Of a stretch of 64,000 nucleotides of DNA, positions 43,662 to 52,106 are shown one piece after another. The stretch spans positions 1,454,330-1,518,329 of the forward strand of contig NZ_CP067007.1 in NCBI RefSeq assembly GCF_018128925.1. The letters are read 5' to 3'. Every line of letters starts with the position of its first letter. The first letter of the stretch is position 1. Below the pieces are notes generated by a model that ran no database searches, was not told the origin of the DNA, and saw only the letters and a program-made list of their open reading frames with translations. The position numbers and the translations under genes were made by a program. This DNA comes from Nitrosopumilus sp. K4. Its GTDB lineage: Archaea; Thermoproteota; Nitrososphaeria; Nitrososphaerales; Nitrosopumilaceae.

Positions 43662-44336
43662 ATGAAAAAGGCAGTAATTGTGTTTAGTGGCGGAATAGAC
43701 TCTGTATGTGCTGCTTCATTTTTAAAGTCAAAATATGAGCTGTATGGAATCTCGTTTTCATATGGTCAAAAGGCAAATAGGGAGATTGTTGCTGCCAAAA
43801 CCTTTGCAAAAAAACTAGGCTTGAAAGAACACAAGATTGTAGATATTGATTTTATGAAGAGTCTTTATGGAGATTCAAATGTATTAACAAGCAAAAAAAG
43901 AAAGATTCCAAGCAAGTTTGATTATTCGATAGTAGTTCCTATTCGTAATGCAGTTTTCTTATCCATAGCATCTGCATGGGCATATACGCTAAATGCATCA
44001 GTTGTTGCATATGGAGCACATACGGGTGACAAGAATTATCCAGATTGCAGACCAGCCTTTGCTAAAAAATTAGAATCAGCATTTAATCAAGGAGAAATAG
44101 ACGGAATAAACTCAGGGCTAAGAAAAGATATCAGCATATGGTCTCCCTATCGTGAGGGATTATCAAAAAGTGATCTTTTAAAGATTGGAATCAAAACTAT
44201 GGGAAACTCAATTTTTAATACTTGGAGTTGTTATGCAAGTAAAAAACTTCATTGTGGCCAATGTGAATCTTGCAATAACAGAAAGGCTGCATTTTCAAAT
44301 GCAAAAATTAATGACAGAACAAAATATCTAAAATAA
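43662..44336 (+). CDS. queC: 7-cyano-7-deazaguanine synthase (QueC)
   Basis: 224 residues. Adenylation PP-loop VFSGGIDSVCAASFL at residues 7-21, YGQKANRE near 35, VPIRNAVFLSIASAWA near 92, and the C-terminal zinc site C-x8-CGQCESC near 188-204. QueC converts 7-carboxy-7-deazaguanine to preQ0, the precursor of archaeosine in tRNA. It follows thrB by 4 nt. With queE and folE nearby it forms most of the 7-deazaguanine pathway. Confidence 0.96.
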   Translation: MKKAVIVFSGGIDSVCAASFLKSKYELYGISFSYGQKANREIVAAKTFAKKLGLKEHKIVDIDFMKSLYGDSNVLTSKKRKIPSKFDYSIVVPIRNAVFLSIASAWAYTLNASVVAYGAHTGDKNYPDCRPAFAKKLESAFNQGEIDGINSGLRKDISIWSPYREGLSKSDLLKIGIKTMGNSIFNTWSCYASKKLHCGQCESCNNRKAAFSNAKINDRTKYLK

Positions 44337-44338
44337 TT

Positions 44339-44590
44339 CTAGTATCGGGTTTCAAGAATTTTTCTTTTTAAAACCACGGTTCTAATTATGGCATACCAAA
44401 TCAAGAAAATTCCCCCAACAATTCCCATAAAGACCCAATTTTGATCAACTGGAGTCAATCCTTGAATAGAGTTTGTTATTTCTCTTGAAACTAACATAGA
44501 TACGGCAAGAACAATTCCAAATTCAATTGCATACCACGTCCAATTGGGCCAAGACTCTTTTGGAACATGAACATTTGGATGTGCTCCCAT
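44339..44590 (-). CDS. Small two-span membrane protein, unknown
   Basis: 83 residues. N-terminal HPNVHVPKESWPNWTWYA, then two hydrophobic helices (about 24-42 and 54-73) and a basic end (VLKRKILETRY). The helix pair with a short loop suggests an integral membrane protein, perhaps an accessory subunit, but no family is recognised. It lies between queC and folE, downstream of folE on the same strand. Confidence 0.72.
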   Translation of the reverse strand: MGAHPNVHVPKESWPNWTWYAIEFGIVLAVSMLVSREITNSIQGLTPVDQNWVFMGIVGGIFLIWYAIIRTVVLKRKILETRY

Positions 44591-44631
44591 GTGTCATCTC
44601 AAAAAGATTGATTATTTAATTTTTCACTGTT

Positions 44632-45189
44632 TTAGAGTAAGTTCTCAGATGGACGTCTTCTGATCATGGCCATAATACTCTCTTTTTCTTCTTTATTTTC
44701 ATAAATTCCTCTGTATGCTGAAGATGAAAGTAATGCGTCATTTCTTACTCCTCGCATCTTCATGCAAAGGTGCTCAGCATCAGCCAATACTACTACTCCT
44801 TTTACGCCTTGAGCATACAGTTCATCAGCAATATTTTTGGTCAGTCTTTCTTGAATCTGTAATCTTTTAGAATACTTTTCTACCAGTCTGACTAGTTTTG
44901 AGATTCCAAAAACTCTGCCATTTGGGGAATATGCAATGTGTATTTTTCCAAAAAATGGTAGCATGTGATGCTCACACATTGAATAAAACTGAATGTCTCT
45001 TGCAACAACTACGTCAGAATCCTCTGAGAATTGTACAGATAGTTCTGAATCAGATTCATATCCTCCAAAAATCTCTTTGTACATGTCTGCAATTCTTTCA
45101 GGAGTGTCAATTAATCCCTCACGTGTAGGATCTTCCCCAAGCTCAATAATTAATTCCCTAACGAGTTTTTTAACACGTTCTTTGTCCAT
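44632..45189 (-). CDS. folE: GTP cyclohydrolase I
   Basis: 185 residues of type IA GTP cyclohydrolase. The zinc and catalytic motif [20 protein letters not shown] is near residues 73-92, the second Cys/catalytic motif [10 protein letters not shown] near 146-155, and [14 protein letters not shown] near 115. The enzyme makes dihydroneopterin triphosphate, used in 7-deazaguanine and pterin synthesis. Many archaea use the unrelated MptA instead; type I FolE is one of the features shared by thaumarchaea. Next to queE and queC. Confidence 0.95.
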
Positions 45190-45251
45190 TTTATAATCTC
45201 ACAGATTTCTGCTAGTATTTGAACTTAATCTGATTATCAAGGTAAATGTCA

Positions 45252-45965
45252 CTATGGTGCACCAATAAGTTTGTGAAGTTGAGGTACAACTTTGACATTA
45301 GAATAATATGGATAGACAGCATCATAGAGTTCCAGTAATAAGTCCAAGGAAGGCTCTGCTACTCCAAATGTAGGCTGTATGATAAATCCGTCAATGTTAT
45401 CTTTTGAAACGGTATTGAATATTTTTTCAACAAGTAATTTGAAATCATGTAATTTTGTTTTCGAGCTGGTGACAATTTTGATGTAAGTAGTCTTTTTAGC
45501 AGACATTGCTGATTCAAGACATTTACAAGCATTCTCAATTAATAGGTCATAGTGTTTTGAGTCAACAAATTCTGAATCCTTAGTCTTAAACTCTATTTTT
45601 ACAATATCAATAAACGGTAAAACGTGATTGAATCTGTCTGCATCAAAACAAGATGATTCTAGATAAGTCAAGATATTTTTTGATTGAACGTATTTTGCTA
45701 ATTCTGCTACAGCATTGTGTTGGATTAATGGATCACCGCCTGTAAAATTTACTTTGAATGTCTTGTCTTTCAAATTTTTGTCAATTAGTGCACATGTATC
45801 CTCTATTGAATATTCATCGCCTGAATCAAGCGGGAGGGATTCCTTAGTATCACAATAAAAGCATGTGAAAGGACATCCAGCTAATCTAACAAAAAGTGTC
45901 TTTGTTCCAAACAGAATCCCCTCGCCTTCAATTGATGTGAATATCTCAAATAATCTTACACTCAA
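45252..45965 (-). CDS. queE: 7-carboxy-7-deazaguanine synthase (QueE), radical SAM
   Basis: 237 residues. The N-terminal EIFTSIEGEGILFGTKTLFVRLAGCPFTCFYCDTKES holds the C-x3-C-x2-C radical-SAM cysteines near residues 31-38. FTGGDPLIQ near 74 is the GGxP-type motif, and the compact length suits QueE. It converts carboxy-tetrahydropterin to 7-carboxy-7-deazaguanine. Together with FolE and QueC the pathway is here except for QueD/PTPS, which is not seen in this window. It begins 62 nt upstream of folE on the same strand. Confidence 0.93.
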   Translation of the reverse strand: MSVRLFEIFTSIEGEGILFGTKTLFVRLAGCPFTCFYCDTKESLPLDSGDEYSIEDTCALIDKNLKDKTFKVNFTGGDPLIQHNAVAELAKYVQSKNILTYLESSCFDADRFNHVLPFIDIVKIEFKTKDSEFVDSKHYDLLIENACKCLESAMSAKKTTYIKIVTSSKTKLHDFKLLVEKIFNTVSKDNIDGFIIQPTFGVAEPSLDLLLELYDAVYPYYSNVKVVPQLHKLIGAP

Positions 45966-46007
45966 TGATTTTTTAGATTGTTTTCATTATTTATGCAATG
46001 ACTTTTA

Positions 46008-46208
46008 CTAGTGCATTACAGGTTCTTTTGAATAAAATAATCCAGAAATAAAGAAGACAACTCCTAAAATTCCAATTAGACTACCAACAAATTCAACAGT
46101 GTTTTGCATTTCACCTTCAACTGGAGCCCAAAGCCATGCCATTAATACACCAACAACAATCATTGGAATTCCCACTCCAACAACTATTGCCTTTGAAGCC
46201 ATGCTCAA
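46008..46208 (-). CDS. Small two-span membrane protein, unknown
   Basis: 66 residues with two hydrophobic helices (about 4-26, IVVGVGIPMIVVGVLMAWLW, and 38-58) separated by a short acidic loop (APVEGEMQNT), ending in SKEPVMH. No family is recognised; similar short two-helix proteins are frequent in thaumarchaeal genomes. It is the last gene before queE on the same strand. Confidence 0.7.
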   Translation of the reverse strand: MSMASKAIVVGVGIPMIVVGVLMAWLWAPVEGEMQNTVEFVGSLIGILGVVFFISGLFYSKEPVMH

Positions 46209-46242
46209 ATTCTTTGGAAAATGTATATGAAGCTTATGCTAC

Positions 46243-47049
46243 CTAGCGGTTTGCTTTTTGGATAACTTTTACTAATTTGATTAATTCTGAAAAACTGCTC
46301 TTTGCATCAGAAAGATTGTCTTCAGATAATGATAGTTGGATTTTTACAATTAAATCATATGCAGTTCTGGTATTCTCAGAGGGTTCAGCTTTATCAAGAA
46401 ACGATTCAATCTTATCTAATTGCTTTTCAAGAAATTGCTTGATTCTTTTAGTAGCACTGTTTGATGCATGTTCCCTAATATTTTTTTGAATGTCATTAAG
46501 AAGTAACTTTAATTCTCCAATGGTGTTTTTGGCACCTTCGTTATCGCCATTTCTAATTTGTTCACGTCCTTTTTCAAACAGTTCATAGATTTGATCAAAG
46601 TTAATTCCAGTATCATATCTTTTAGAAATTGCCTCTAGGTTCTGGAAATATTTATGCAGTCTGTTTAATTCACTTGTGAGATCTCTGTCAGCGGTATCTC
46701 TTGTGGTTACTTTAGCTTCGGTACTTGGTTCAGATATTATTCTAGAAATTTGTTGAAAAATTTTCATTGCTGAAAGAAAGTCTTTCTTTGCTTGGGTTAT
46801 GTTATTATCGTTAAGAGAATCCTCTAATGAAATTACTGCTAAATGCCCCTGATCATACAGAGATTGAATGTTTTGAGGTACAGAGTCACCATAAACTCTC
46901 TGTAGTTGGTTTTCAATTTGTTTGTCTGCTTGTTTAGCTATGCGCAATAAGATACTAGGATCGTTTTGTGCATGTGCATCATTAACTAGTAACGGAGATG
47001 TGGTTCCAAAAATCAGCACAAATATTGTGAATAGAGTTAATGTTTTCAT
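46243..47049 (-). CDS. Exported helical protein of the winged-helix cassette
   Basis: 268 residues with a signal peptide (TLTLFTIFVLIFGTTSPLLV, then NDAHA). The mature part is almost entirely alpha-helical, with three or more repeated ~90-residue bundles (DNNITQAKKDFLSAMKIFQQI, IRNGDNEGAKNTIGELK, LSEDNLSDAKSSFSELIKLV). No cysteine and no transmembrane helix follow, so it is probably periplasm-side or surface-bound. The start overlaps the stop of the membrane winged-helix gene by 4 nt (ATGA). Translational coupling suggests it may be a ligand or partner for that protein's ectodomain. Function unknown. Confidence 0.8.
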   Translation of the reverse strand: MKTLTLFTIFVLIFGTTSPLLVNDAHAQNDPSILLRIAKQADKQIENQLQRVYGDSVPQNIQSLYDQGHLAVISLEDSLNDNNITQAKKDFLSAMKIFQQISRIISEPSTEAKVTTRDTADRDLTSELNRLHKYFQNLEAISKRYDTGINFDQIYELFEKGREQIRNGDNEGAKNTIGELKLLLNDIQKNIREHASNSATKRIKQFLEKQLDKIESFLDKAEPSENTRTAYDLIVKIQLSLSEDNLSDAKSSFSELIKLVKVIQKANR

Positions 47050-48071
47050 AATTCTTCCTCCAAATTCTTGCGTAATTTTACAAGGTTTTGCATGTCTTTT
47101 TTTTCAATTTCTATAATACCATTACGTTCCAATCTTTTTACGGCACGCCACATAGTTGTTCTTGGCTGTAGGAATTTCTTTCTCAATTCACTTTCTAATG
47201 CTTGGCCCCCGTTGTTGGAGATAAACTTCACTATCTCTTTATCATCTTCACGAATATCTGGATTTAATTTGAAAATTGTTTCAGGTGCAATTGATTCAGA
47301 TTTCATAATGGTTTGAGATGTTTCAGTTTGTTGAATTGGTCTTGCTGATTTTTTTCTTGTTTTGATGATTGCTACAATTCCAACTATGGCAGCTGTTGCA
47401 ACGCTGCCAATTGCTGCATACATCAAATTATCCGAATTTGAAATAGGTTCAACTGGATCAGGGTTATTAGGTGTTGTAGTTGTGCTAAAAAGATAATCAA
47501 TCTCAGTTTGACCTTCAGATAAAGTAAGTTGGTTTTGATCATTTACTAGTTTCATATCAATTGGTAGATTTGTCATTCCAACTATGGCAGAGTTTTTGGG
47601 TAAAAGTAAAGTAAAATCAGACGGTGCATCTAAAGAAAAGGTCCAAATTCTTCCTTTTTTTGAGACCAAGTCATGAATATCATATTCTACAGAAATTGTA
47701 GATGAGCCAAATGTTTCAATTAGTGCAAAATTTCCTATAACGTCACTAGTAAGCAAGAATCCGTTTTCGCCTACAGCCACAAAATTATCTATTGTGCTTC
47801 CAAACAGATCAAGTTCATAATCAGTTGCAAGTGGATCAACATCAACTTCGGCAGAAATATGTGTTGTTCCATCAGGATAAATTATGAGATCTAGGGTCCT
47901 AGGAGAGCTGAATGAAGACTGGATTGGCATTACGGCTGTTACAATAATCATACTAACAACCAAAAGTGGAACTTTGACCATTGTTTCGAGAATACCATCA
48001 GTCCTTACAAAAAGCATTCCATCTTCTCGTAGGTACTCTTTCCCATGAATTGGTACGATTTGCTGGTTCAT
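47046..48071 (-). CDS. Membrane-bound winged-helix transcriptional regulator with ectodomain
   Basis: 341 residues. An N-terminal hydrophobic helix near residues 32-55 (VKVPLLVVSMIIVTAVM) precedes a beta-rich ectodomain (about 58-215; DLIIYPDGTTHISAEVDVDP, FSLDAPSDFTLLLPKNS), then a second transmembrane helix (about 222-245, YAAIGSVATAAIVGIVAII) followed by basic RKKSARP. The last 70 residues are a winged helix (DKEIVKFISNNGG, RTTMWRAVKRLERNGIIEIEK). This is a one-component sensor: extracellular domain, membrane crossing, cytoplasmic DNA-binding domain. It sits 4 nt after the soluble winged-helix gene and overlaps the exported partner. Internal ATGs make the exact start uncertain. Confidence 0.82.
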   Translation of the reverse strand: MNQQIVPIHGKEYLREDGMLFVRTDGILETMVKVPLLVVSMIIVTAVMPIQSSFSSPRTLDLIIYPDGTTHISAEVDVDPLATDYELDLFGSTIDNFVAVGENGFLLTSDVIGNFALIETFGSSTISVEYDIHDLVSKKGRIWTFSLDAPSDFTLLLPKNSAIVGMTNLPIDMKLVNDQNQLTLSEGQTEIDYLFSTTTTPNNPDPVEPISNSDNLMYAAIGSVATAAIVGIVAIIKTRKKSARPIQQTETSQTIMKSESIAPETIFKLNPDIREDDKEIVKFISNNGGQALESELRKKFLQPRTTMWRAVKRLERNGIIEIEKKDMQNLVKLRKNLEEEL

Positions 48072-48075
48072 TTGG

Positions 48076-48363
48076 TTAGTACCTTAGATTCATACTCTCT
48101 ACGAGTCCCTGAAATCTCTTAAATTCCTGGAAAAACTGCAGTCCTTTTTCAGTAATCAAAAAGACTCTGTTCCTATCATTTTTGACGGACTCGACTAAGC
48201 CTGCTTCTACCAGTTTCTCACATTTGTCTAGTACTGCATAGTGAGATAGGTTGGCTTTGCGAGAAATTGCAGATACAATGACTCCATTACGGCCGCCATC
48301 GGCGGTAACGTCTAGGATGTCACCCATTATGCCCATTTCGGACCTGTATTGTTGTTTTGACAT
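48076..48363 (-). CDS. Small winged-helix transcriptional regulator
   Basis: 95 residues. The whole protein is a winged helix: RSEMGIMGDILDVTADGG, then ANLSHYAVLDKCEKLVEAGLVESVKNDRNRVFLITEKGLQFFQEFKRF. It resembles the archaeal DUF4364/HTH single-domain regulators common in thaumarchaea. It is the first gene of the cassette with the membrane winged-helix gene 4 nt downstream. An inverted repeat overlaps its start codon, so autoregulation is likely. Confidence 0.88.
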   Translation of the reverse strand: MSKQQYRSEMGIMGDILDVTADGGRNGVIVSAISRKANLSHYAVLDKCEKLVEAGLVESVKNDRNRVFLITEKGLQFFQEFKRFQGLVESMNLRY

Positions 48364-48381
48364 GTTATAGTATACAACATG
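48361..48381. promoter_or_regulatory. Palindromic operator over the winged-helix start
   Basis: CATGTT-ATAGTATAC-AACATG: 6-bp arms are perfect inverted repeats with a 9-bp spacer that itself contains the palindrome GTATAC. The left arm includes the start codon of the small winged-helix gene. This is the expected place and size for a dimeric HTH operator, so it probably controls the three-gene cassette and could be shared with leftward and rightward transcripts. Confidence 0.55.
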
Positions 48382-48952
48382 TTAGTTAATGAGGAACATT
48401 TTGAAACTTTGTAGCGGAACGTATAGCGGAACAGGTGTTTCATGTCAAAAAATCATCAAAAATCATTGTTTTTGATGGAGGGGGAAGAAATTCCAAGTTT
48501 TTTGAAGCCTAAAATTTAGGAAAAATTCTTTGTTTTTGAGAAAAATGTTGGTTTTGCCAATTTACTGAAATTTTTAGGAAAAATTATGATTTTATACTAT
48601 TTTTGAATGATTTTTGTATATAAGGAACAGGACGTTTCATGTCAACTGTGGTTTTAGAAGGCCATTATTATTGAAAAAATCGTATGTGGGGTCAGTCTAA
48701 CATTTGAAGAGCCTGAAGATTTCTTCAGAATGCAAGAAATGCTTTTTCATTTAAAGAATTTCTGGATGATATTTACAGATTTCATGAAATTTCATTCAAG
48801 ATATACCTAATCTGAAAATCAGTACATTGATGATTCAGAACATGATTTGATGAGATTTTACCTTTTTCGTTTCAATGATAAAAAATCATTCACTAGGTCA
48901 GCTTTGAGATTCATAATAACTTTTTATTCCCAAATTGAAAAAATACTCATAA
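48364..48952. other. 590-bp gap with duplicated 21/22-nt motif; no confident gene
   Basis: No full gene is supported. Two copies of GGAACAGG-N1/2-GTTTCATGTCAA lie at 48428-48448 and 48624-48645; both contain an ATG and are preceded by TATA-like sequence (the second by GTATATA near 48616). The first opens a 25-codon frame, the second an 11-codon one. From about 48650 to 48810 another frame reads coding-like (ending FHLKNFWMIFTDFMKFHSRYT) but has no start joined to it. This may be the remains of a small gene or a regulatory region. Confidence 0.4.
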
Positions 48953-49417
48953 ATGTTTGATAAATTCAAAAAAGATGAAGGCGGGGAAATGGTAGAAGAA
49001 AGGACAGAAGAATCAACTGAGACAGAAACTTCCACCACAGAGTCATCAAGTGAAATTGGAATAGGCGAATTAATGGATAAACGTGCCAAACTAGAAGAGG
49101 CAATTGATTATGTCGGATTGATGATTAAAAATCTCAAGGATAAGAGAACAAATCTTGAAAAGGATATCGAGGAGGAATCAGTAGATATCAAGAATTTGAA
49201 AGAAAAACTTCAAAAAGTTAGTGAGTACATCGAGGAAGAAAATCAAGGAATAAAGGAATTGTCCAATAAAAGACAGCAGGTAGAAAGTGAAGCAGATCAA
49301 GTGGGTTCTATAATCAACAGTTTACGTGATAGACTATCAGGATTAGATAGAATTATTGACGATGAAGGAAATAAGGTCAAGAAAGTAAAAGAGTCTAGAG
49401 AGTCATTAGAAAATTAA
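48953..49417 (+). CDS. Soluble coiled-coil protein, unknown
   Basis: 154 residues. After an acidic Ser/Thr/Glu-rich N-terminus (residues 1-38, EERTEESTETETSTTESS), residues about 45-150 show heptad-repeat coiled coil in repeated blocks (LMDKRAKLEEAIDYVGLMIK, LRDRLSGLDRIIDDEG). No cysteine, no membrane part. It converges with the neighbouring CdvB-like gene, its stop 2 nt from that gene's, so the two may be functionally linked by location only. Function unknown. Confidence 0.82.
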   Translation: MFDKFKKDEGGEMVEERTEESTETETSTTESSSEIGIGELMDKRAKLEEAIDYVGLMIKNLKDKRTNLEKDIEEESVDIKNLKEKLQKVSEYIEEENQGIKELSNKRQQVESEADQVGSIINSLRDRLSGLDRIIDDEGNKVKKVKESRESLEN

Positions 49418-49419
49418 AT

Positions 49420-50067
49420 TTAATAAAACTTGGAAGAATTTGCAGTAGATTTTTCTGTGTCAGTTGGTACTGATGGGAACATTTGTCCAGTTGAACTTTC
49501 GGCTACTGCAGCTGCTTCTTGTAAGATTTTTTCTGATTCTGAATTTGTTGAGTCATCAATTCCAAATGCACCTTCACTTGAGAAACTATCAGTCATGAAG
49601 CCTCCAAGCATTTCTGCCATCTGATTAATTTCTTGATCAGCTCCTGGCATGAATTTTGCTAGTGATGATTTTAGGTTCTTCATTAATCCTATTGTAGGCA
49701 TTATAGTAACAACCGTGTCACCTAGATCATGATAGGTTGTTAATCGTAATTCAATTTGTTCTAATGCAATTCTAGCATTTCCTAAAATTTTTGAAACTTT
49801 TCTAACTTCAGCTAATTCTTTTGACAATACCTTACTTGTGCTAGTATCATGTGATTCAGTTGCCTCAACGATTCTTTTGAAAAGCTTACCGTCCCTTTCT
49901 TTTAGTTTGTTTATCATTGAATCCAGTTTAGTAATCTGAGTTTGTAATCTCTTAATTCCTGTTTGGACCTTTGGTTTTAGTGGGCCTTTTGGTTTTAGTA
50001 CATCACTAATTTTGTCACCAATTCCTGGTTGATGTTGTGAAGCCCATTTATTTTGAAAGTTTGGCAA
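49420..50067 (-). CDS. CdvB-family ESCRT-III-like protein (paralogue 2)
   Basis: 215 residues, clearly related to the protein at 23899-24549: the same long N-terminal helical hairpin (KRLQTQITKLDSMINKLKERD, AEVRKVSKILGNARIALEQIELRLTTY), acidic stretch, and a C-terminal EKILQEAAAVAESSTGQMFPSVP tail with the same FPSVP motif. No winged-helix domain. Two paralogues of similar length in one window suggest B1/B2-type subunits that would co-assemble on the division ring. The cdvA and cdvC genes are not in this window. Confidence 0.9.
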   Translation of the reverse strand: MPNFQNKWASQHQPGIGDKISDVLKPKGPLKPKVQTGIKRLQTQITKLDSMINKLKERDGKLFKRIVEATESHDTSTSKVLSKELAEVRKVSKILGNARIALEQIELRLTTYHDLGDTVVTIMPTIGLMKNLKSSLAKFMPGADQEINQMAEMLGGFMTDSFSSEGAFGIDDSTNSESEKILQEAAAVAESSTGQMFPSVPTDTEKSTANSSKFY

Positions 50068-50150
50068 TGTTTAGGCTCAATGAATTTGTACTTAATTTCA
50101 GGTGTGAATATAGGTTAACAGTTCATTAAATTTGTCTAACAAGAATGAGG

Positions 50151-50255
50151 CTAAATGTTTGAAATCACGGATCTTTGTGGATGGATTTTACGAATGTGGT
50201 TTGATATCAAAGACTTGTTAGCAATGGATTCGCCGCAAAGTGGACATTTTGTCAT
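50151..50255 (-). CDS. 34-aa C2H2-type zinc finger microprotein
   Basis: A 34-residue frame with ATG at 50255 and a clean TAG stop. It encodes a single C-x2-C-x12-H-x4-H finger (CPLCGESIANKSLISNHIRKIH, with both cysteine and histidine pairs at typical spacing) plus a short tail. This is the whole protein. It lies in the gap between a CdvB paralogue and an exported protein. The intact finger geometry strongly supports translation even at this length; nucleic-acid or protein binding is expected. Confidence 0.7.
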   Translation of the reverse strand: MTKCPLCGESIANKSLISNHIRKIHPQRSVISNI

Positions 50256-50349
50256 TTTAACAAAAAGTGGGTCTAGAAAAATCTATTTAAATATTATTTT
50301 TTTCTGAAATTCAGAAATTTATTTTTACTATACTGATTTTTGGATTTTA

Positions 50350-50781
50350 TTGAATGGAAGACTGGTTTTTATTCCAATAATTGTCGCAGTGGTAGGATTA
50401 GTAATAATTTCATCTTTTGATGAAAATGATGAGGAGAATAAGGCCATTTTTCATGTAACTTTGGCAGATCCAAAAATGTACCAAGATGGTGTTTATTCAG
50501 AAAAATTCTTGGTTGAGGCTGGGGAGTATTTTTTTAGATTTGTTCCAAATGGGGATAGTCCTCAAATTTTGTCAATATCAATAAATGGAGAAAATTTCTT
50601 GTTTAAAGAAAATTTTACTTTAAAAGGAACATTGCATGAAACAGGAATTTCTCAATACTATACATGGGACTATGAAGGACAGAAAAAAATTGAGATTAAT
50701 GAAAAACAGGAGTTAGAAATCATGATAAACCCAAATGGGAACTTTTTGGGTACGGTATCAGTTGATATTTTAGAAAATTAA
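50350..50781 (+). CDS. Exported or membrane-anchored beta-rich protein, unknown
   Basis: 143 residues from a TTG at 50350. A signal or anchor helix (LVFIPIIVAVVGLVIISSF) is at residues 5-23, followed by a short acidic stretch and a beta-rich domain of about 110 residues (KFLVEAGEYFFRFVPNGD, SQYYTWDYEGQKKIEI). No cysteine, no known motif. Its stop abuts a GC-rich structured RNA candidate, so the RNA could be part of its 3' end. Confidence 0.72.
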   Translation: MNGRLVFIPIIVAVVGLVIISSFDENDEENKAIFHVTLADPKMYQDGVYSEKFLVEAGEYFFRFVPNGDSPQILSISINGENFLFKENFTLKGTLHETGISQYYTWDYEGQKKIEINEKQELEIMINPNGNFLGTVSVDILEN

Positions 50782-50915
50782 GAGGCGCAACCCCCTTCAT
50801 TGCAGAACTTTGAGAGATTTCCTCTCTATCTCAGGTCGTTATTACGCCTGATTGCCTTTATCGTTCTGCGGGGCCACGCGGTTTTAGTCGATAGGAATTA
50901 TATCCATCGGCATTA
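50782..50915. ncRNA. GC-rich structured RNA candidate, about 130 nt (orientation unresolved)
   Basis: A GC-rich island between an exported-protein gene and an SDR gene. GCAGAAC (50802-50808) pairs with GTTCTGC (50863-50869), extended by CCCC (50791-50795 region) with GGGG (50870-50873). Inside are hairpins from GAGAG/CTCTC (50812-50826) and CAGG-CGT/ACG-CCTG (about 50832-50850). A third hairpin pairs GTCGAT-A-GGA with TCC-ATCGGC (50887-50911). One G-U pair favours the plus strand. A TATA-like TTAAATA centred near 50938 and a GAAA-type loop favour the minus strand. It resembles no family I can name; not RNase P, SRP or 5S by conserved strings. Confidence 0.5.
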
Positions 50916-51112
50916 GTTAATATAGGAAGTTTAGGTATTTAAGATTTAGCATGAAATTTTATGAAAAAATATACAAAAAAATGAAATTTTTCATGCCTAA
51001 TCTATCTTCTAATAATTAATTTGAATTATTAACAATATGAATCAGTAACAATTGAAAATTAGACTATTTTCAAAATTAGTTGATCTATAAATTACGAGTT
51101 TTCAGCAAGATT

Positions 51113-51859
51113 ATGTTGAAGCTTTCTGGAAAAGTAGCCCTGATTACTGGTGGTAGTAGAGGAATAGGATTTTCAACTGCAAAAATTTTTTCTGAAAATG
51201 GCGCTAAAGTTGTAATCACTGCAAAGGATCCTAAACGATTAGAAAATGCTGTTTCAAAACTATCTAATACAATTGCAATTCCAGCTGATATTAAAAATGA
51301 AGAAGATGTAAAAAAAGTGGTAGATAAGACTGTTGAAAAATTTGGCAAGTTAGATATTCTTGTAAATAATGCGGGAATTTTTCCAAAAATTAAACAGTTA
51401 CACGAAATTGAAGAATCGGAATGGCAAGAAGTTTTAGACGTAAATTTGACAGGACAATTTCGATTTACAAAAGCTGCTATTTCTTACCTGAAAAAAACTT
51501 GTGGATGTATAATCAATATTTCATCAGATGCTGGCCTAAAGGCATATGAAGGATTTAATGCTGATGCATATTCAGCTGCAAAGGCGGCCCTAATTATTCT
51601 TACAAAATGTTGGGCTTTGGAATATTCAAAAAATAAAATTCGAGTTAATTGTATTTGTCCAGGCGTTGTTGATACAGATATGACAAAACCCTTTTTGAAA
51701 ACTGAGAAAGATAGAGATTTTATGAATAATGAGCACCCAATAGGACGCATAGGTAAGCCAGAAGAGGTGGGTAAGGCTGTACTTTATTTTGCATCTGATG
51801 ATGCATCATGGACTACAGGTGCAGTTTTGGCAGTTGATGGAGGAGAATCAATAAAGTGA
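51113..51859 (+). CDS. 3-oxoacyl-ACP-reductase-type SDR
   Basis: 248 residues from the ATG at 51113; the TTG at 51080 gives an unneeded extension and is rejected. It is a classical SDR: LITGGSRGIGFSTAKIF near residue 10, NNAGIFPKI near 82, the SDAGLKAYEGFNADAYSAAKAAL stretch near 138-160 with catalytic YxxxK, CPGVVDTDMT near 182 and VLAVDGGESIK at the end. Often labelled FabG, but thaumarchaea have no FAS, so a quinone, polyol or sugar substrate is more likely. It is followed by a small membrane-protein gene. Confidence 0.9.
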   Translation: MLKLSGKVALITGGSRGIGFSTAKIFSENGAKVVITAKDPKRLENAVSKLSNTIAIPADIKNEEDVKKVVDKTVEKFGKLDILVNNAGIFPKIKQLHEIEESEWQEVLDVNLTGQFRFTKAAISYLKKTCGCIINISSDAGLKAYEGFNADAYSAAKAALIILTKCWALEYSKNKIRVNCICPGVVDTDMTKPFLKTEKDRDFMNNEHPIGRIGKPEEVGKAVLYFASDDASWTTGAVLAVDGGESIK

Positions 51860-51899
51860 GTTCACATGGATTTAATACTGCTCAAGAGGTACTGGAAAT

Positions 51900-52106
51900 A
51901 TGACAGATAAGAAAAAGAAGGCAAAATTGATCATTCTTTTAGGAGTAATTTGGGTAGTGATAACTTTACCATTACCGTGGATTATTAATAATCCAGAGGT
52001 ATCATCAGAGCAGTTTAATATAATTCTAGGAATAATCGGAATTTTATCTATTCCATTTATTGTCTTAGGTGTAGTATGGACATTAAAACCGGAATTAACA
52101 ACCTAG
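51900..52106 (+). CDS. Small two-span membrane protein, unknown
   Basis: 68 residues, starting TDKKKKAKL, with two hydrophobic helices (about 10-30, IILLGVIWVVITLPLPWII, and 40-60, NIILGIIGILSIPFIVLGVVW). The short charged loop between them and basic N-terminus suggest an integral membrane protein. It begins 40 nt after the SDR gene and ends 6 nt before the CysQ-like gene, so it is probably cotranscribed. No family recognised. Confidence 0.72.
   Translation: MTDKKKKAKLIILLGVIWVVITLPLPWIINNPEVSSEQFNIILGIIGILSIPFIVLGVVWTLKPELTT

Follow-up and report, generated by a model that had tools for sequence, protein, structure and literature searches.

Introduction

To our knowledge, few ways of passing information from the cell surface to the genes are understood in archaea of the phylum Thermoproteota. 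Proteins that combine a transmembrane (TM) region with a DNA-binding domain are referred to as transmembrane transcription regulators (TTRs). In the cocomponent systems, an associated protein is described as inhibiting proteolysis of such a regulator or as stimulating heterodimer formation (PMC10269533). A second point of reference is OST1, homologues of which have been predicted in TACK and Asgard archaea and whose cytoplasmic helical bundle is described as ribosome-binding (PMC11417166). The subject of this report is an operon of three genes, here called g1, g2 and g3, in a 64,000-nucleotide stretch of Nitrosopumilus sp. K4 (positions 1454330-1518329 of its single-contig, 1.65-Mb genome). 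This stretch is referred to below as the window.

On balance, and with moderate confidence, g2 is read here as a TTR with an exported partner, g3, the two having been joined in the Nitrosopumilaceae by a probable autoregulator, g1. Such a two-protein surface sensor looks like a new archaeal route from the cell surface into gene expression. No published description of a g2-g3 module was found among the best-ranked literature matches.

A Conserved Operon in the Nitrosopumilaceae

The original prediction, made from the letters of the window, described three adjoining genes, and they are indeed found together on the minus strand, with a gap of 4 nucleotides (nt) between g1 and g2 and an overlap of 4 nt between g2 and g3 (Table 1). 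Its view of a conserved, close-packed cassette in which a membrane-bound winged helix is joined by an exported partner likewise agrees with the loci of relatives, and examination of synteny did not show the genes to be usually apart. A g2 match at E ≤0.001 occurs in 134 of 151 genomes of the family. Eighty loci were named (L numbers), and 78 of these reach g1, L155 and L164 beginning inside g2. In all 78, g1 ends within 6 nt of g2, a script having placed the g2 start at the most distant in-frame start codon, ATG or other, in the vicinity of the g1 stop, a rule that favours short gaps. The N-terminal segment of g2 appears to be coding, because 43 sequences show no variation at residues 20-23, which precede the first helix. 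A third gene was called in 67 of the 78 loci; its overlap with g2 is 4 nt long in 64 of these and 1 nt long in the other three. The remaining 11 consist of two that run off their contigs (L107 ends inside g3 and L160 inside g2, leaving no scorable third gene) and nine with a different third gene.

Divergence rises steeply from g1 to g3. In comparison with the window, the median identity is 94.7% for g1 (78 loci), 58.4% for g2 and 34.8% for g3; the corresponding values for the nearby folE and queE are 88.6% (72 loci) and 77.2%.

Pairing of g2 and g3 across the Phylum

Across the phylum, a g2 profile found matches at E ≤1e-5 in 243 of the 398 genomes searched. All 16 distant homologues that were fetched end in a winged helix preceded by a hydrophobic TM segment. 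A helical protein adjoins g2 in 14 of these 16 loci (in L200 with one small open reading frame, ORF, between them), and nine of the 14 neighbours have a hydrophobic start by a simple scan. When a g3 profile was run over the 274 ORFs of the 16 loci, the 13 best matches were all g2 neighbours, eight at E ≤0.001 and five weaker (0.003-0.15); the fourteenth helical neighbour (L198) gave an E of 1.2, which is not significant. These E-values, like those of the fusion and insert profile tests below, refer to small ORF sets and not to whole genomes. No g1 homologue was found in the same 16 stretches (best E 0.4).

Adjacency was then scored in 58 genomes outside the Nitrosopumilaceae, hand-chosen among the g2 matches listed. 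A g3-profile match lies within 3 kb of a listed g2 match in 48 of them, distances being taken from listed g2 matches only. The two genes are convergent in 25, with g3 upstream on the same strand in 16, downstream on the same strand in five, and divergent in two. As a yardstick in place of a formal control, 3 kb on either side amounts to ~0.4% of a 1.6-Mb genome. The g3 profile was mixed, 12 of its 22 rows being proteins picked as g2 neighbours in the distant loci described above; the genomes tested are different from those of these loci, and some share families or genera with them.

Since co-location is found in four arrangements, the link between g2 and g3 seems to survive rearrangement, which is strong comparative evidence of a partnership. 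On these grounds the g2-g3 pair may be regarded as an ancient module of the phylum, older than the operon. The idea of a self-contained circuit, put forward in the original prediction, therefore needs narrowing: a conserved cassette does exist, but the ancient unit appears to be g2 plus g3 alone, with g1 a Nitrosopumilaceae addition, and some loci carry a divergent exported fourth gene (38 of 78) or another third gene (nine).

Fusion, Co-Divergence and Apparent Joint Exchange

A natural fusion of the two partners exists in the same genome. A protein of 971 amino acids (aa; genome positions 358886-361798, L206) combines a g2-type ectodomain (44.7 bits in the small ORF set, 23.5 bits in a whole-genome search) with two successive g3-profile parts (40 bits in the small ORF set). 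Its g3-like score was equalled by none of 500 shuffles of residues 431-640, and a whole-genome search with the g3 profile at E ≤1 returned only g3 and the fusion protein, the two parts of which scored E 9e-7 and 4.9e-6. The fusion is rare; among the matches listed for 40 relatives, only one genome (G002) shows most of its length. The middle part of the protein (residues ~258-390, with GGGCLIATATFGT) is also seen in many proteins encoded by Nitrosopumilaceae genomes.

The two genes also appear to diverge together, and g1 hardly co-varies with either. Partial correlations of pairwise identities, given folE and queE, are 0.825 for g2-g3, 0.21 for g1-g2 and 0.20 for g1-g3 (63 loci). Furthermore, the g2 and g3 of the window are nearer to those of L092 and L096 (77-79% and 57-58% identity, respectively) than to those of L143 and L128 (58-59% and 34%). 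By comparison, g1, the ESCRT-III-like gene, queE and folE are nearest to L143, a genus-mate, and L128 (100, 85-86, 81-83 and 95%). It thus seems that g2 and g3 were exchanged together as one block, recombination being the simplest explanation.

Predicted Structures and the Ribophorin-Like Ectodomain

Topology and folds were modelled with AlphaFold2 (AF2), and the models bear out the domain content that had been proposed from the letters: a beta ectodomain, a TM helix and a winged helix in g2, and an export signal-like start in g3. The g2 model, built on a 43-sequence alignment, has a helix at residues 27-47, an all-beta domain at 57-195 (predicted local distance difference test, pLDDT, mostly >90), a second helix at 215-242 and a winged helix at 263-333. 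With two predicted TM helices and a predicted DNA-binding domain in the same protein, g2 is by definition a predicted TTR. Among 21 members of the g2 family, matches at E ≤0.1 were obtained to HTH_24 in 20 (best 2e-4) and to DUF7343 in 16 (best 1.3e-4). In some genera (loci L077, L079, L080, L081 and L085), g2 has an extra, helical-looking insert of ~60 residues between the ectodomain and the second TM helix; that this insert is a copy of g3 found no support (best E 0.08). The model of g3 is all helix after its signal-peptide-like start. It gave no match in the PDB at E ≤0.001, a result that does not establish a new fold.

A fold search with the ectodomain (Foldseek, VIA-align) ranked chains of the oligosaccharyltransferase complex first. 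The best match, yeast 8agb_E, has a Z score of 14.2 and a root-mean-square deviation of 4.1 over 154 residues at 14% identity, and eight chains of oligosaccharyltransferase or translocon entries head the list (Z 12.2-14.2). The output names entries only; we take the matched oligosaccharyltransferase chains to be Ost1/ribophorin I. M1 aminopeptidase and related N-terminal domains follow at Z of about 10-12, and the ectodomain is accordingly predicted to have the fold shared by ribophorin I and the M1 aminopeptidase N-terminal domain. The ribophorin family PF04597 gave no match over its cut-off in 21 genomes and none in the genome of the window; three sub-threshold matches were seen, the best at E 6.6e-4 (G005), in an ORF that the g2 ectodomain profile does not match. 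A search of PDB sequences with the g2 profile returned a single match, at E 2.1, which is taken as chance. Since no sequence match exceeds its cut-off, the likeness amounts to a predicted shared fold and not to shown descent.

The main rival to a regulatory role arises from this fold. It holds that g2 is an OST1-like membrane protein of an envelope or secretion assembly, that its winged helix binds protein or RNA (the ribosome or translocon, for example) in place of DNA, and that g3 is an exported accessory. The structural ranking and the OST1 homologues predicted in TACK archaea, together with the ribosome binding ascribed to the OST1 cytoplasmic domain (PMC11417166), speak for it. That domain is, however, a four-helix bundle and not the winged helix predicted in g2; no PF04597 match exceeds its cut-off in the 21 genomes searched; and in every one of the 78 named Nitrosopumilaceae loci g2 follows the gene of a predicted DNA-binding protein. 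This explanation is considered rather unlikely. A more distant scenario, which is speculative and less likely again, would have a ribophorin-type domain and a helical exported partner monitoring the output of the translocon in an ancestor. In that case g2-g3 would be an archaeal secretion-stress sensor that reports to DNA and uses the extracellular domain from which ribophorin I arose, while Asgard archaea and eukaryotes would report to the ribosome through a helical bundle.

The Promoter Block and the Soluble Winged Helix g1

Column conservation was calculated over 73 non-redundant upstream regions, obtained by reducing 122 regions to 104 unique ones and then to those below 85% identity; the two genome collections used share organisms. 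Reading downstream, the very strongly conserved block consists of GAAA, GTTCCGCT twice at a distance of 12 bp, GTTTC, and a GTTCC/GTCCC site placed against a TATA-like CATAAA; TATACTA comes next, near -10. The names given to the boxes are our interpretation. The operon transcript is predicted to begin, leaderless, at the g1 start codon.

The exact tandem of GTTCCGCT is present in 102 of the 122 upstream regions and, at position -69 or -68 in every case, in 66 of the 73 named loci whose upstream DNA is long enough. (The latter base drops L099, L133 and L151, which begin inside g1, and L110 and L144, with 58 and 56 nt upstream.) Across the family, 110 of 151 genomes contain it, as compared to none for a reversed-pattern control. 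The tandem is single-copy per genome except in five genomes of one genus, and the genome of the window has one exact copy only. When up to three mismatches were allowed, that genome gave eight matches (one exact) against four for the control, so no wider regulon is shown. The location, phasing and uniqueness of the tandem suggest that it serves a dedicated regulator controlling its own promoter.

In two of these five genomes, L204 (positions 931 and 1330, in reverse orientation) and L205 (1446), the extra 20-bp operator copies were located beside the operon: within the 5′ coding part of the divergent coiled-coil gene and, in L204, after that gene as well. These copies keep the four spacer bases of the promoter copy, and no other exact copies occur in the two genomes.

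The best candidate for binding the array is g1, because the element and close g1 orthologues occur in the same family. It matches HTH_45 (PF14947) with 39.4 bits, above the Pfam cut-off of 25.5, and the best match outside the family, among 300 genomes of the phylum, has an E of 9.5e-16 at 36% identity. Probably, then, g1 is an operator-binding autoregulator of the operon, its DNA binding being suggested by the predicted fold. Four genomes (G058, G028, G005 and G008) hold 6-10 g1 matches each, paralogues included, and the genome of the window has two distant paralogues of g1, at 192626 and 199830.

It is also conceivable, though doubtful, that g1 is a chromatin-like protein related to Sso10a with no special role towards g2 or g3. 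In that case another factor would bind the array, or the array would be a core promoter of a special kind, and the g2-g3 pair would simply share the transcript. The nearly independent divergence of g1 from its neighbours fits such a role, as does a match to Sso10a (NF053610) of 35.8 bits, below the 60-bit cut-off. Against it, most genomes contain the array once only, linked to the operon promoter, unlike a chromatin or core-promoter signal, and the gap between g1 and g2 stays at 6 nt or less in all 78 loci.

The Divergent Exported Gene D

In 38 of the 78 named loci, a gene for an exported protein, here called D, is transcribed divergently from a start about 290-370 nt from g1 (591 in one). Half-sites resembling the array stand just after the TATA box of its promoters; three of the 38 loci gave no start in this comparison. 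The motif TATA..GAACA is present in 34 of the 38, and a fuller motif in 29. Of 35 loci that lack D and offer 500 nt or more of upstream sequence, the short motif persists in 12 and the full motif in none. No match to D was found in the genome of the window by a search run without a positive control, and a probable remnant of its promoter is listed in Table 1. In many relatives D is likely to be an output of the system.

The CATGTT-N9-AACATG Palindrome

A palindrome, CATGTT-N9-AACATG, had been noted over the start codon of g1 and proposed as part of the circuit. It is present there, in one exact copy in the window, and is lacking in relatives, the very finding named beforehand as contrary to such a role. 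It was absent from 29 relative loci scanned whole and from the 78 named loci (L099, L133 and L151, which begin inside g1, are not truly scannable), and among the 122 upstream regions it occurred only in the window's own. At its place, the arms of 103 unique relatives form on average 1.64 of 6 possible pairs, against 1.60 elsewhere. Downstream of -70, conservation is lowest in the stretch that holds the left arm (a mean of 0.62 bits between -20 and -11, compared with 1.37-1.60 between -70 and -21), and 44 of 100 shuffled windows contained at least one site when one mismatch was allowed. Being private to this genome, with arms that pair at background level, the palindrome was rejected as an operator and is best treated as chance.

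Neighbouring Genes and Feature Coordinates

The genomic surroundings are also widely conserved, with folE found in 72, queE in 74, a coiled-coil gene in 70 and an ESCRT-III-like gene in 69 of the 78 named loci. This synteny could favour the view that the triplet is just an old operon like many others, inherited without any functional tie between its genes. Such a view is very improbable, and for g2-g3 it is already contradicted by adjacency in four arrangements outside the family, by the fusion and by the apparent joint exchange.

In the window, the Snf7/ESCRT-III-like gene faces the coiled-coil gene; its match to PF03357 (E 2.9e-4) is below the cut-off. Downstream of the operon lie genes that we take, from their sequences, to be queC-, folE- and queE-like. 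A scan of 44000-52000 against Rfam for RNA elements returned only SNORD11B (E 0.099), below the gathering score and away from the operon.

Table 1. Features of the g1-g2-g3 locus, in window coordinates.
Feature	Position	Strand	Remarks
g1	48363-48076	minus	95 aa; soluble winged helix (HTH_45), probable operator-binding autoregulator
g2	48071-47046	minus	341 aa; predicted membrane winged-helix protein: N-terminal segment, helix, beta ectodomain, TM helix, winged helix
g3	47049-46243	minus	268 aa; predicted exported all-helical partner
Promoter element (about -78 to -22)	48385-48441	minus	GAAA..GTTCCGCTwTGyGTTCCGCTwTra.GTTTCaaaatgtyCCTCATaAAc; TATA-like box about -28 to -22
Core operator candidate, GTTCCGCT-N4-GTTCCGCT	48413-48432	minus	tandem at -69
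TATACTA	48368-48374	minus	about -11 to -5; conserved promoter-proximal motif
Probable D promoter remnant (TATATAAGGAACAGGACGTTTCATGTCA)	48617-48644	plus	resembles D promoters of relatives
CATGTT-N9-AACATG palindrome	48361-48381		covers g1 start; judged coincidental
Coiled-coil gene	48953-49417	plus	
Snf7/ESCRT-III-like gene	49420-50067	minus	
queC-, folE-, queE-like genes	43662-45965		downstream of the operon

Proposed Mechanism and Its Weighing

We infer that g2 and g3 are in physical contact. In the proposed mechanism, an extracellular signal would be received by the beta domain of g2 and read out, via the second TM helix, by its cytoplasmic DNA-binding winged helix. The g3 protein would dock outside the membrane on the g2 ectodomain and tune g2 as a sensor, ligand holder or stabiliser, and its binding may alter the stability or dimerisation of g2. 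In the Nitrosopumilaceae, the pair would have come under a private promoter, an array of GTTYC-like half-sites just upstream of a TATA box. The added soluble winged helix, g1, would bind this array, so that autoregulation sets the level of the operon; this direction of regulation is, like the signal, presumed. The similar half-sites after the TATA box of D suggest that this gene is a likely output in many relatives.

Several observations weigh against this reading. Adjacency is not universal: two loci of one family (f3; L196 and L197) have g2 with no adjoining g3, and 10 of the 58 test genomes lack adjacency, eight having listed matches on different contigs and two having no g3 match. For most of these genomes, the g2 match taken from the list spans just the ectodomain and TM helix; the winged helix was confirmed in all 16 of the fetched distant loci. 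The winged helix of the window's g2 stays below Pfam cut-offs and is modelled with moderate pLDDT (about 63-83), and DNA binding by g1 and g2 alike is deduced from predicted domains. As regards joint exchange, the coiled-coil neighbour is 79-83% identical to that of all four loci compared and does not discriminate between the lineages. In a genus labelled g15, the spacing ahead of g2 is ambiguous (46-47 nt, three loci) and the operator is partly degenerate. Finally, g3 is replaced in nine named loci (L139, L152, L153, L157, L158, L162, L165, L169 and L170) by another exported protein, 115-121 aa long, that begins with TTG, overlaps g2 in the same way and has a conserved GCVSC motif. The one such protein tested in Pfam matched DUF5780 at E 0.0044 and nothing else; by our reading it is fn3-like.

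For this widespread two-protein module, as yet unnamed, the prediction is contact outside the membrane and readout inside it. In the ammonia oxidisers, the module carries an operator candidate of known sequence and position. The predicted ectodomain fold would also tie an archaeal regulator to a core subunit of eukaryotic glycosylation and could bear on the origin of ribophorin I.

Comparison with Known Systems

In M1 aminopeptidases, the beta fold of the g2 ectodomain occurs as a non-catalytic N-terminal domain; unlike these enzymes, g2 lacks a peptidase domain, and inspection of its sequence showed no HExxH motif. The closer structural likeness is to Ost1/ribophorin I, which has two lumenal domains. 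The one that shares the g2 fold is presumably the membrane-proximal domain, which is followed by a TM helix. In contrast, g2 has one ectodomain and ends in a predicted winged helix, where Ost1 is described as having a cytoplasmic four-helix bundle (PMC11417166). Thus, the lumenal-domain fold is predicted in g2, and the paired lumenal domains, the helical bundle and a PF04597 match over its cut-off are not seen.

Among archaeal proteins, ArnR and ArnR1 of Sulfolobus resemble g2 in being membrane-bound one-component regulators with a helix-turn-helix (HTH) domain. ArnR is described as having an N-terminal HTH, a HAMP/sensor part and two C-terminal TM domains (PMC6396743); this order is reversed in g2, which therefore falls outside the ArnR architecture. 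The table of PMC10269533 lists no associated protein for ArnR, unlike g2 with g3.

The general design is nearest to that of the bacterial pairs ToxR/ToxS, TcpP/TcpH and VtrA/VtrC, in which one protein joins a DNA-binding domain and a TM region and is served by an associated signalling protein (PMC10269533); g3 is likewise encoded beside the regulator g2. As judged by the neighbouring gene, g2 has the extracytoplasmic partner of a cocomponent system. The lipocalin-like domain that is common, though not universal, in such partners is not seen in g3, which is predicted to be all-helical. Unlike ToxR/ToxS, g2 is archaeal, places its DNA-binding domain C-terminally behind two predicted membrane helices, carries an ectodomain of predicted ribophorin/M1 fold, and is accompanied by an extra soluble winged helix, g1.

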